Assembly (NCBI RefSeq): GCF_900108095.1
Contig: NZ_FNWL01000003.1
Location: 174,501 to 238,500, forward strand
DNA from: Natronorubrum sediminis
GTDB lineage: Archaea; Halobacteriota; Halobacteria; Halobacteriales; Natrialbaceae
Direction of reading: 5' to 3'
Length of the DNA stretch: 64,000 nt
Under the pieces are notes generated by a model. That model was given only the letters and a program-made list of their open reading frames with translations. It made no database searches and had not been told where the DNA came from. Made by a program: the position numbers and the translations under genes. This document shows, one piece after another, positions 5,302 through 8,776 of this stretch (position 1 is its first letter; each line of letters begins with the position of its first letter).

Positions 5302-7101
5302 TCAGTGACCCTGATCGTGCGGGTTCAGTGCCGTCCCGTAGCGCTCGGCGTGATCCGTGTAGTCGATGAATCGCGGTGCGTCGGGATCGAACGGTCGCTC
5401 GAGACTCTCGAAGGCCTTCTTCTTGTCCCAGCCCTGGAGCTTGCCGACCGCCGACTTGTCTTCGAGGTCGTGGTAGTCGAGTTTCGGCTCGGTGAGCTCC
5501 CACGCCTTCACGCCCTGTTCGGTTCGGAGGATGACGCTCGAGTACTCGTCGGAGCTCCCGACGGAGCCGACGGTGATGTCCGAACAGAAGCCGGTGAAGT
5601 CCGCACACTCGTCACAGCCTTTGAGTGCGGCGTCGTGGAAGTTCTCGACGTCTTCCTCGACGATCATGTTCCCGTCGTGGTCGTAGACCATCATCTTGCC
5701 GTGGAGGACGTCCATCTTGCCGATTTCGTCGGGTGAGATGTTGCGTTTTTCCTCCAACTGCTCGCCCATGAGGCTGTAGTAGTTGAAGTTCTTCGTACAC
5801 ATGAGCGAGATGGTGTAGTCGACGGCTCGGATGCCCTCGTTCTGGGCCTGATAGTCCCACTCGAAGTCCTGCAGGGCGCGGATGCCTTCGATCTCACACG
5901 GCGTGCCGACTAAGGCGAGCGAGAGGTCGTCCCAGTCCTTGTCGGGGAGCTTGTGCTCCCACTGTTTCAGGTCGAGGTTGCCGAGTGCGAGCGTCTGGTT
6001 GTAGACCGTCCCCGCGTTCTCGATGAGCTCCTGTTCCGTAGTCGCGAGGAAGCTCTCGGCCTTCCAGGCCTCTTCGTCGCTCTCGGTCGCGATCAGCGCG
6101 CCGTCGATTTCGCCTTCCTCGAGCAGGGTCGCGAGGATACCGGTGACGACGCCGCCGTCTTGTGCGCTGTCGGTCCAGTCGTCGTCGACCTTCGCCGAGA
6201 ACTCCGTAATCGGGTCGCCAGCACCCTTGACGTTGTCCTCGCCGCCGGTGATCTTCCACTGGCGTTCATAGCGCATGCCGCCGCGGGGACAGAAGTCCCA
6301 ACAGAGCGAACAGCCGGTACACATCTTGACGAGTTCCGGCAGGTCGTCCTCGCCGACGCCGATGGAGTCGGAGGGACAGGCGGCAACACAGGTCCCACAC
6401 TGGATACACCGGCCCTCGTCGATGACGGCCTCGTCCAGTTCCATGAACCAGGTCTTCTCGTCGGGCGTCTCGATATCGTTCATCTCCGAGCGAATCGAGT
6501 AGTCGGGCGTCTCGAGGTCGACGCCATCTGGCACGCCGACGCGCGTATCCGGCGAGTCGTCGTAGACGTCCTGACTGACGTTTTCAGCGGGTTCGGTGAA
6601 TTCGAGATCGCCGAGTTCGCCCATCTCGTCGACGTTCGCCACACCCGCCCCGTCCGTCGCGACGCGCTGGTCCTGTGAGTGTGACGACGCGTCCTGCTCT
6701 TGTGGCGACGAATCCGCGGTCTTCTCGCCGCACGAGCAGGTGTTCGGCGAGCAACTGCCGCCGCTGGCGTCGTCCGCGCCAGTCTGAACTGCGCCCGCTC
6801 GAGCGTGATCCGTTCCCTCGCGGGACCGCGGCGCGGCGCTGCCCGATTCAGGGAACATGACGGCTTCGTCGTCGTCCGTCTGGGACTCGGGAACACCGGG
6901 GAACGTCCGTTCGTCCTCGCGGCTCGCGGCTTCGCCGTCTTCTCGCGGGCTTCGCCCGCTCGAACGGTCCGCGGAGCTTCGCTCCGCGCTACTCACTTCA
7001 TTCGAGGACTCACTGCGTTCGTCCTCGTAGCTCGCGTGTCGCTCCGCTTCCGCTCGCGTCTCTGAGAACTCGCTTCGCTCGTTCTCATTGTCAATCCCCA
7101 T
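5302..7101 (-). CDS. F420H2 dehydrogenase / hydrogenase beta-subunit-like iron-sulfur flavoprotein
   Basis: This 599-residue protein has three parts. Residues 1-~190 are low-complexity, acidic and Ser-rich, with a Cys cluster CSPNTCSCGEK. Residues 232-271 hold two [4Fe-4S] ferredoxin motifs, C232/235/238/242 and C261/264/267/271. The rest is the FrhB/FdhB fold: GGVVTGILATLLEEGEIDGA, ALVGTPCEIEGIRAL, and GCDECADFTGFCSDITVGSV. This layout is that of FpoF and of the N-terminal half of methanogen Fsr, which take electrons from F420H2 through FAD to Fe-S clusters. Its ATG lies 11 bp inside the end of the upstream siroheme reductase gene, which argues for translational coupling and a shared enzyme. 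F420 use is inferred, not shown. Confidence 0.85.
   Translation of the reverse strand: MGIDNENERSEFSETRAEAERHASYEDERSESSNEVSSAERSSADRSSGRSPREDGEAASREDERTFPGVPESQTDDDEAVMFPESGSAAPRSREGTDHARAGAVQTGADDASGGSCSPNTCSCGEKTADSSPQEQDASSHSQDQRVATDGAGVANVDEMGELGDLEFTEPAENVSQDVYDDSPDTRVGVPDGVDLETPDYSIRSEMNDIETPDEKTWFMELDEAVIDEGRCIQCGTCVAACPSDSIGVGEDDLPELVKMCTGCSLCWDFCPRGGMRYERQWKITGGEDNVKGAGDPITEFSAKVDDDWTDSAQDGGVVTGILATLLEEGEIDGALIATESDEEAWKAESFLATTEQELIENAGTVYNQTLALGNLDLKQWEHKLPDKDWDDLSLALVGTPCEIEGIRALQDFEWDYQAQNEGIRAVDYTISLMCTKNFNYYSLMGEQLEEKRNISPDEIGKMDVLHGKMMVYDHDGNMIVEEDVENFHDAALKGCDECADFTGFCSDITVGSVGSSDEYSSVILRTEQGVKAWELTEPKLDYHDLEDKSAVGKLQGWDKKKAFESLERPFDPDAPRFIDYTDHAERYGTALNPHDQGH
6926..7086. 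repeat. Cluster of small perfect palindromes inside a coding region
   Basis: Several inverted repeats lie next to each other in the 5' part of the iron-sulfur flavoprotein gene. Examples are GCGGGC-TTC-GCCCGC at 6945-6959, GCGGAGC-TTC-GCTCCGC at 6971-6987, CGAGGAC with an 11-nt loop and GTCCTCG at 7003-7027, and GAGAAC with an 11-nt loop and GTTCTC at 7064-7086. Read on the minus strand the 11-nt loops are GAACGCAGTGA and GAGCGAAGCGA. They encode the disordered, Ser/Glu-rich N terminus. Confidence 0.75.
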
Positions 7102-8776
7102 GGGCAACACCTCCAGCAACCGGGGCCTCTGCCCCTTGCATGATTGTGCGGAGTCGTCCGTTGTCGACGCGGCGACACCACTCGTAGAACTCCTCGCCGT
7201 CGTGGCGGTCGGCGTTGTAGGCCTCGAACAACTGCTCTAAGGCCGGAATCACGGAATCGGCGGGAACGGCGCTCTCGATCCAATCGAGGAACTCGTTGTC
7301 CGCGCCGAGTGAACCACCGAGGCCGAAGTCCATGCCTTCGACGATGTCGGACTCGCCGTCTTCGTCGATTTTGACGGTCTCGCCACGGAAGCCGATGTCC
7401 GCGATCTGGGGCTGCGCACAGGAGGCGGAGCAGCCGGACATGTGCATTCGGATGGCCTCGATATCGTCGGGGACGTCGATGCGCTCGTCGAGTTCGCGAG
7501 CCCAGCGCTTGGTTCGCTTTTTGGTCTCGATGATCGCGTAGTTACAGAACTCGCTGCCGGTACAGCCGACGGCACCGCGGGAGAACGCGCCGGGATCGGG
7601 CTGGTAGTCCGCGGCGAACGGCTCCGCGAGGAGGTCCTCGACGTTCTCCTCGGGGATGTGGCTGATGAGGAAGTTCTGGTCGGTCGCGAGGCGCACGGAG
7701 GCGTCCTCTGTGCCGTACTTTTTGGCCGCGCGAGCGGCTTCGGCGAACTCGGTGCCGCCCATTCGGCCGGCGACGACGTTGAAGCCGACGTACTGCAGCC
7801 CCTCCTGTTTCTGATCGTGGACGCCGACGTGGTCGTCCTGATAGCCGACGGTCAGGTTCTGACCCGCAGTCGGGAACTCGAGGCTAGTTCGGTCGCGGAT
7901 CGCTTCCTCGAACTTCTCGGGGCCGAGTTGCTCGACGAGGTATCGCATGCGGCAGACGCCGCGGTTGTTTCGGTCGCCGATCTCTTTAAACGTCTGTGCG
8001 ACGGCGCGACAGAACTCGACGGCGTGTTCTGGCTCGATGAAGAGGTCGAGTTCAGAGCCCATTCGCGGGCCGTCAGAGAGGCCGCCACCGACGCGAGCGT
8101 GGAAGCCGTAACGATGCTCTCCCTCGAGTTCTTTCTTCGCGGGGACGAGTCCGATGTCGTTGATCTGAGACTGCGCGCAGTCGTGGGCACAGCCCGTGAT
8201 CGTGAGCTTGAACTTCCGCGGAAGGTTCGCGTACTCGCGGTTGCCCGTGAAGAACTCGGAGACGGCGTCGACGACCGGCTGGGCGTTGAAACACTCGTGG
8301 TCGTCGAGACCGGCAGCGGGACAGCCGAGAACGTTCCGGGCGGAGTCGCCACAGCCTTGGACCGTCGTCAGGCCGACTTCGTCGTATCGATCCCACATTT
8401 CGGGCACGTCCTCGACGCGAATCCAGTGTTTCTGGATGTCCTGACGGGTCGTGATGTCGAGGTAGGCGTCACCCCACAGTTCGTTTTGCTCTTCCCCGCC
8501 GTACTCCTCGGGTGCGACGGCGAGGTCGTCGGTCACTTCGCCGATAACCTCGGCCTGTTCGGGCGTGAGCTTTCCGCCCGGAACCTTCGTCCGGATCATG
8601 AAGTACCCCTCCTGTTTCTGGGCGTACATGCCGGCCCACTTCAAGCGCTCCCACTCGCCGTCACCGGCTCGCTCTTCGATTTCTTCGAAGGAGAGTCCGT
8701 CTTCTGCGTACTCGTAGACGTCGTCGATCACGTCGAGGGGATGTTTGTTCTGTTTGTACTGCTCCGTCGTATTCAT
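7091..8776 (-). CDS. nirA: Ferredoxin-type nitrite/sulfite reductase (siroheme, [4Fe-4S])
   Basis: A 561-residue assimilatory siroheme reductase. It has two ferredoxin-like half domains and two siroheme/iron-sulfur halves: TGCAHDCAQSQINDIG in the first, and the true cluster ligands C405-x5-C411 (GCTGSEFC) and C449-x3-C453 (MSGCSASCAQPQIADIG) in the second. The family reduces nitrite to ammonia or sulfite to sulfide with six electrons; sequence alone does not decide which. The next gene downstream overlaps it by 11 bp and encodes a likely electron donor. I chose the ATG at 8776 (MNTTEQYKQNKHPLDVIDD), which matches family starts; the open frame upstream looks non-coding. Confidence 0.92.
   Translation of the reverse strand: MNTTEQYKQNKHPLDVIDDVYEYAEDGLSFEEIEERAGDGEWERLKWAGMYAQKQEGYFMIRTKVPGGKLTPEQAEVIGEVTDDLAVAPEEYGGEEQNELWGDAYLDITTRQDIQKHWIRVEDVPEMWDRYDEVGLTTVQGCGDSARNVLGCPAAGLDDHECFNAQPVVDAVSEFFTGNREYANLPRKFKLTITGCAHDCAQSQINDIGLVPAKKELEGEHRYGFHARVGGGLSDGPRMGSELDLFIEPEHAVEFCRAVAQTFKEIGDRNNRGVCRMRYLVEQLGPEKFEEAIRDRTSLEFPTAGQNLTVGYQDDHVGVHDQKQEGLQYVGFNVVAGRMGGTEFAEAARAAKKYGTEDASVRLATDQNFLISHIPEENVEDLLAEPFAADYQPDPGAFSRGAVGCTGSEFCNYAIIETKKRTKRWARELDERIDVPDDIEAIRMHMSGCSASCAQPQIADIGFRGETVKIDEDGESDIVEGMDFGLGGSLGADNEFLDWIESAVPADSVIPALEQLFEAYNADRHDGEEFYEWCRRVDNGRLRTIMQGAEAPVAGGVAHGD

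Follow-up and report, generated by a model that had tools for sequence, protein, structure and literature searches.

A conserved siroheme reductase-FrhB gene pair of haloarchaea, previously named aFsr, as a candidate F420H2-dependent assimilatory sulfite reductase in Natronorubrum sediminis

Background

A two-subunit enzyme of haloarchaea was named aFsr, a putative F420H2-dependent assimilatory sulfite reductase, by Susanti and Mukhopadhyay (2012; PMC3448663), who assigned to its subunits the same roles as we do here and whose aFsr trees include Haloterrigena, Halogeometricum, Halorhabdus and Halalkalicoccus. Its beta subunit was later listed as part of the putative enzyme by Heryakusuma et al. 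(2022; PMC9295563). According to a 2021 review of haloarchaeal annotation, only a single reaction dependent on F420 was known from halophilic archaea, where the role of the coenzyme was described as enigmatic (PMC8305020). Here we describe a member of this pair, encoded in a stretch of 64,000 nucleotides of Natronorubrum sediminis (assembly GCF_900108095.1, contig NZ_FNWL01000003.1, positions 174,501 to 238,500), which is called the window in the following and supplies all coordinates. The system, described in an earlier note on this DNA, is already known as a prediction under the name given in 2012. Our analysis indicates that alpha and beta probably constitute a heteromeric assimilatory sulfite reductase, in which beta would oxidise F420H2 and alpha would reduce sulfite to sulfide.

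Gene layout and conservation of the pair

The two subunits are encoded by separate open reading frames (ORFs) on the same strand, alpha first and beta downstream:

7091..8776, minus strand: alpha (aFsr-alpha), predicted siroheme [4Fe-4S] assimilatory sulfite reductase of the NirA/SirA type, 561 amino acids (Pfam NIR_SIR 5.5e-52 plus NIR_SIR_ferr; best PDB relatives are ferredoxin-nitrite reductases and NirA/SirA of M. tuberculosis, 1zj8)
5302..7101, minus strand: beta (aFsr-beta), predicted iron-sulfur flavoprotein of the FrhB/FpoF family, 599 amino acids (Pfam FrhB_FdhB_C 4.4e-33, FrhB_FdhB_N 4.9e-19, Fer4; the model matches 8riu_B, Fsr 7np8/7npa and FrhB)
7091..7101, minus strand: overlap of 11 bp between the beta start (ATG at 7101) and the alpha end (in the 76 scorable named loci always 11 or 8 bp)

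The mechanically called ORF of beta starts with a TTG at 7119, six codons before the ATG, and comprises 605 amino acids; the overlap of 11 bp described in the earlier note is seen from the ATG at 7101. The only FrhB C-terminal domain found in the host genome of 3.78 Mb is that of beta, and the closest named relatives are Natronorubrum species with 95% identity across the beta core.

The conservation of the gene pair across haloarchaea, which had been proposed as a check, is pronounced. PF04432 is present in 126 of 391 haloarchaeal genomes and PF01077 in 342; Haloferax volcanii is among those without a detected FrhB gene. Directly upstream of 148 of the 150 listed FrhB-domain genes from these 126 genomes a siroheme reductase is encoded, which rules out a chance adjacency; alpha and beta are a conserved, obligate-looking pair. 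For this count, 100 of the 150 listed PF04432 places showed a reductase gene at most 4 kb upstream on the same strand in the lists, and 48 further pairs were found by inspection of the remaining 50 regions. Within the collection of named genomes 79 of 80 loci are paired. The overlap amounts to 11 bp in 41 and to 8 bp in 35 of the 76 scorable named loci, with no other value; as the script takes the beta start nearest to the alpha stop, the closeness of the genes is partly imposed by the method, which does not, however, impose the limitation to two values seen in many genera. A close homolog of beta was not found in the non-haloarchaeal genomes sampled, where the matches listed had identities of about 30-39%.

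Most pairs resemble that of the window and are referred to as type I. Type II, about 30 of the 150 places (L197-L202, L154, L161, L187 and similar), consists of a frame of 800-980 amino acids that joins two rhodanese stretches with a KxK siroheme reductase; the beta downstream of it has about 415 amino acids and no N-terminal extension. Rhodanese-fused NirA in Halobacteria was reported by a survey of gene fusion and fission in 2024 (PMC11237513). Such an arrangement could couple the handling of thiosulfate or persulfide to F420. In an unrooted tree the alpha proteins of type II form a clade sister to those of type I, and a branch with 100/100 support sets both FrhB-partnered clades apart from unpaired SirA-like enzymes and NasD. 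This branch fits a reductase-FrhB partnership that arose once and preceded the fusion with rhodanese, with caution owing to the long branches that meet there. The two unpaired FrhB proteins (type III; L147:3801-6886 and L150:4059-5342) comprise 427-428 amino acids without an N-terminal extension, are about 70% identical to the beta core and have no adjoining siroheme reductase. The protein at L147 adjoins a FAD (flavin adenine dinucleotide) flavoprotein resembling fumarate reductase, and the FrhB module may have been re-used there with another partner.

The reductase subunit and its substrate

Two NIR_SIR and two NIR_SIR_ferr stretches give alpha the four-domain layout of NirA and the assimilatory sulfite reductases, and neither a Fer4 nor an inserted ferredoxin domain was detected in it by Pfam. 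The residues considered for its cofactor and its substrate are:

7418..7564, minus strand: C405, C411, C449 and C453 of alpha, ligands of siroheme/[4Fe-4S] (no variation among 27 aligned homologues or across all 110 rows of type I)
8207..8221, minus strand: PRKFK, residues 186-190 of alpha, with the substrate-binding pair KxK, a sulfite reductase signature (NasD of the same genome has PRKFN)

The four cysteines lie exactly where the earlier note had placed them. The alignment rows contain some genomes twice, as named and unnamed copies, and hence do not represent independent samples. Lys replacing Asn at the substrate site shifts siroheme enzymes towards sulfite. With its active-site stretches GMY, QGCGD and PRKFK, alpha corresponds to SirA of M. 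tuberculosis (GLY, EACGD and PRKYK, taken from the database row in the comparison with 1zj8), the Tyr, the Cys and the KxK pair occupying the positions seen in 1zj8. Tyr51 and Cys142 are present in 110 of 110 type-I rows, and Lys188 and Lys190 in 109 of them, the remaining row being gapped at both lysines. Mycobacterium SirA is given as a sulfite reductase in a work of 2005, as cited in PMC11237513 (reference 94).

The genome encodes a second siroheme reductase, NasD (L066:7429-9213), which is 38% identical to alpha and carries Phe, Gly and PRKFN at the matching positions. Its gene lies in a nitrate-assimilation cluster, next to NasA (1208 bits against a cut-off of 1000) and a transporter of the NarK type. 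Since alpha matches the active site of SirA and a separate enzyme with KxN belongs to the nitrate cluster, nitrite is unlikely as the substrate of alpha; judged from these residues, a division of labour is likely in which NasD would act on nitrite and alpha on sulfite.

The earlier note had left the choice between nitrite and sulfite open, and the residues favour the sulfite side. Siroheme sulfite reductases often reduce nitrite as well. An F420H2-dependent nitrite reductase, comparable to FsrII of anaerobic methanotrophic archaea (ANME) or to the Fsr of Methanocaldococcus infernus used for nitrite, would have precedents, because F420-dependent nitrite reductases do exist (PMC9295563, PMC13381448), and the automatic model NF007125 (ferredoxin-nitrite reductase) assigns 392 bits to alpha, below its cut-off of 594. 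The KxK pair, the Cys and the Tyr of SirA are nevertheless kept throughout type I, in place of the KxN of ferredoxin-nitrite reductases, and among the window ORFs analysed with Pfam no nitrate genes lie directly beside the pair. Together with the separate nas cluster, the active-site residues disfavour this assignment, which we regard as very improbable.

The FrhB-type subunit and its electron donor

Beta combines two ferredoxin-type motifs with a complete FrhB domain, as the earlier note had recognised:

6376..6408, minus strand: [4Fe-4S] motif A of beta, C232, C235, C238 and C242 (CX2CX2CX3CP, residues 232-243; invariant in 47 rows)
6289..6321, minus strand: [4Fe-4S] motif B of beta, C261, C264, C267 and C271 (CX2CX2CX3CP, residues 261-272; invariant in 47 rows)
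6151..6162, minus strand: QDGG, residues 314-317 of beta, FAD pyrophosphate loop (equals 24QDGG of FrhB; invariant)
5488..6198, minus strand: FrhB_FdhB_N and FrhB_FdhB_C domains with the cluster cysteines C402, C435, C496 and C499 and VGSVGS (511-516), as deduced from Pfam, alignment and FrhB structures

Both FrhB domains score far over their cut-offs. According to the structures of FrhB, FAD is bound by 24QDGG, the loop 71-77 and the loop around Cys134, and the cluster by Cys104, Cys134, Cys192 and Cys195; F420 was proposed to lie near S209-V210 and 163IGKGK, a direct density for F420 having been withdrawn in a 2014 paper. Q314-G317, C402, C435, C496 and C499 of beta are the counterparts of the FAD pocket and of C104, C134, C192 and C195, and all of them are invariant in type I. 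Close to the presumed F420 site, VGSVGS is invariant in type I and K462 is kept. The genome further encodes CofD and the F420H2:NADP oxidoreductase Fno (267 bits, cut-off 149.8).

The model of beta has a mean predicted local distance difference test score (pLDDT) of 56.5, with a good FrhB core and a poor ferredoxin part. Due to this modest confidence the global TM-scores (about 0.3) are hardly informative, and the ranking of the matches alone was used. Foldseek placed 8riu_B first, followed by Fsr, 8rja_E, FrhB and then other FrhB-like proteins together with HCAR (5dqr). HCAR is ferredoxin-dependent. Proteins that depend on F420 rank above it both by Foldseek (E about 1e-19 to 1e-22 vs 1e-13) and by sequence. 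On the basis of sequence and model, F420 is the best reading for the donor of beta. As beta does not keep two lysines close to the F420 site, and as its fold recurs in an enzyme dependent on ferredoxin, we infer the use of F420 rather than state it as observed.

The N-terminal extension of beta

Type-I beta proteins carry a long extension in front of the ferredoxin-type motifs:

6652..7101, minus strand: residues 1-150 of beta, a variable N-terminal extension that is predicted to be disordered, with CSPNTCSC (pLDDT about 30-40; CxnCxC in 66 of 76 relatives)
6412..6651, minus strand: residues 151-230 of beta, a conserved segment (NVDEMGELGDLEFTEPA...TPDYSIRSEMND...) that may serve as a docking arm towards alpha (core motif TPxYxIRxxMND, type I only)

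The disordered and Cys-bearing N terminus that the earlier note had read from the sequence reappears in the model, in which residues 1-154 have a pLDDT below 50 and are predicted to be disordered; the cysteines are those of CSPNTCSC. As CxnCxC occurs in 66 of 76 relatives, it is not essential to the family. Of 113 type-I rows, 103 have the motif TPxYxIRxxMND, as opposed to none of 21 beta proteins of type II with their rhodanese-fused partner and neither of the two unpaired proteins of type III. The segment 151-230 thus tracks the type-I alpha partner, which would fit a docking role. We tentatively propose, with more doubt than confidence, that the extension is a partner-specific arm, in which residues 151-230 would anchor beta to alpha and the Cys-rich disordered part might bind a metal or act as a redox switch gating electron delivery. 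A comparable arm is not known from Fsr, FpoF or FrhB in the literature examined.

The region 6890-7101, which codes for the variable N terminus, is made up of short palindromes whose loops are of the GCGAAGC type (inverted repeats; folding z-score -2.9). The peptides encoded by these palindromes vary in number among relatives, as would be seen after in-frame insertions of small hairpin elements.

Proposed mechanism and physiological role

From these features we infer that alpha and beta form a complex through which electrons would pass from F420H2 to sulfite. The FAD bound in beta would accept a hydride from F420H2, and single electrons would then travel along three [4Fe-4S] clusters, one of the FrhB type and two of the ferredoxin type. 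They would end at the siroheme-[4Fe-4S] centre of alpha, the presumed site of the six-electron reduction of sulfite to sulfide. As alpha shows no extra ferredoxin domain, that of beta should pass the electrons straight to this centre and would replace the soluble ferredoxin of related reductases. The segment 151-230 probably holds beta on alpha, and Fno could regenerate F420H2 from NADPH. With potentials of -350 mV for F420 and -116 mV for sulfite (PMC10229431) the reaction would be strongly downhill.

Several points weigh against this scheme. The lysine of the K75-Y76 loop of FrhB is replaced by F, V or I in beta, and K469, a proposed contact of the F420 phosphate, is variable (of 44 sequences, 27 have K and 12 have E). 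The suggestion that F420H2 drives the reductase is supported by the FAD and cluster residues, each of which was kept where checked, and by the presence of CofD and Fno, but not by these two lysines. The K75-equivalent lysine is also missing from 8riu_B in the sequence alignment; the 8riu complex, which contains the zeta subunit of the Ca. Ethanoperedens CO dehydrogenase, was shown to reduce F420 (PMC11493965). The fold of beta is shared by HCAR (5dqr). Reductases of the same active-site class occur without beta in 12 sampled loci, and unpaired SirA-like reductases (PRKWK, Cys, Tyr) are encoded at L037-L040, L043-L047, L049, L052, L059 and L061, in genomes with no FrhB found; enzymes of the alpha type are therefore presumably able to use another donor. 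A Sat-type ATP sulfurylase (PF01747) was not found in the whole genome. Finally, biochemical work on the pair was not found in the open-access literature, most subscription journals lying outside the search.

The lysines, the fold of HCAR and the reductases from genomes devoid of FrhB speak for a rival reading in which ferredoxin instead of F420H2 would feed beta, or alpha directly, and the FAD of beta would be auxiliary or serve another purpose, as in HCAR. However, proteins dependent on F420 rank clearly above HCAR, the pairing is nearly obligate, and a dedicated FAD module with three clusters would be needless if ferredoxin reduced alpha directly, so that we consider ferredoxin an unlikely donor. 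The missing Sat bears on a different question, namely whether the same F420H2-driven chemistry serves to detoxify sulfite, or a related oxyanion, and not to assimilate sulfur. Methanogen Fsr detoxifies sulfite (PMC10229431), and a CysD-like protein of the genome (L206) scores below the curated cut-offs for CysD. Alpha, though, is of the assimilatory type, and the patchy but wide distribution is compatible with either role; detoxification appears the less probable function, although slightly easier to envisage than a ferredoxin donor.

Among five window neighbours tested for recurrence FtsY was the commonest (39 of 80 loci), and none of the five was a sulfur gene.

Beyond the single F420-dependent reaction recorded in the 2021 review, this widely distributed pair is a candidate for a second one in halophilic archaea. 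The aFsr prediction has been standing since 2012, with no test found in the open-access literature searched.

Comparison with known systems

From aFsr as described in 2012 the window pair shows no difference and is another member: both have an aSir-type alpha and an Fsr-N-like beta with an FrhB domain and two N-terminal ferredoxin-type motifs, linked by genome context. New relative to that description are the pairing counts, the overlap, the active-site residues, the N-terminal segment and the rhodanese-fused sister type.

NirA/SirA of M. tuberculosis (1zj8) has the Tyr, Cys and KxK positions of alpha but, unlike the pair, was deposited as ferredoxin-dependent and has no subunit of the FrhB family. 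The best fold matches to beta, the zeta subunit of the Ca. Ethanoperedens CO dehydrogenase and FwdI of Fwd (8riu/8rja, PMC11493965), are likewise stand-alone modules of ferredoxin and FrhB that dock to another redox enzyme via the ferredoxin domain; they differ in operating in the F420-reducing direction, in their partners and in having no long N-terminal extension.

Fsr of methanogens and ANME (groups I and II, 7np8/7npa) has in common with the pair an F420H2-oxidase module with two ferredoxin-type clusters and FAD, joined to a siroheme reductase, and the electron path is probably alike. Fsr, however, is a single chain whose Dsr-like reductase half contains an inserted two-cluster ferredoxin domain (PMC10229431), whereas the window encodes two chains with a reductase of the NirA/SirA type. 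The view of the pair as Fsr with the same parts, reversed and split, consequently stands for the two ORFs and for the reductase coming first, but this is no simple reversal, the C-terminal half of Fsr and the four-domain alpha belonging to different reductase families. As alpha is not an Fsr-type reductase, an Fsr split in two is ruled out, and the pair is analogous to Fsr; it would represent a second, independent solution, with another reductase family and two chains, to the problem solved by Fsr.

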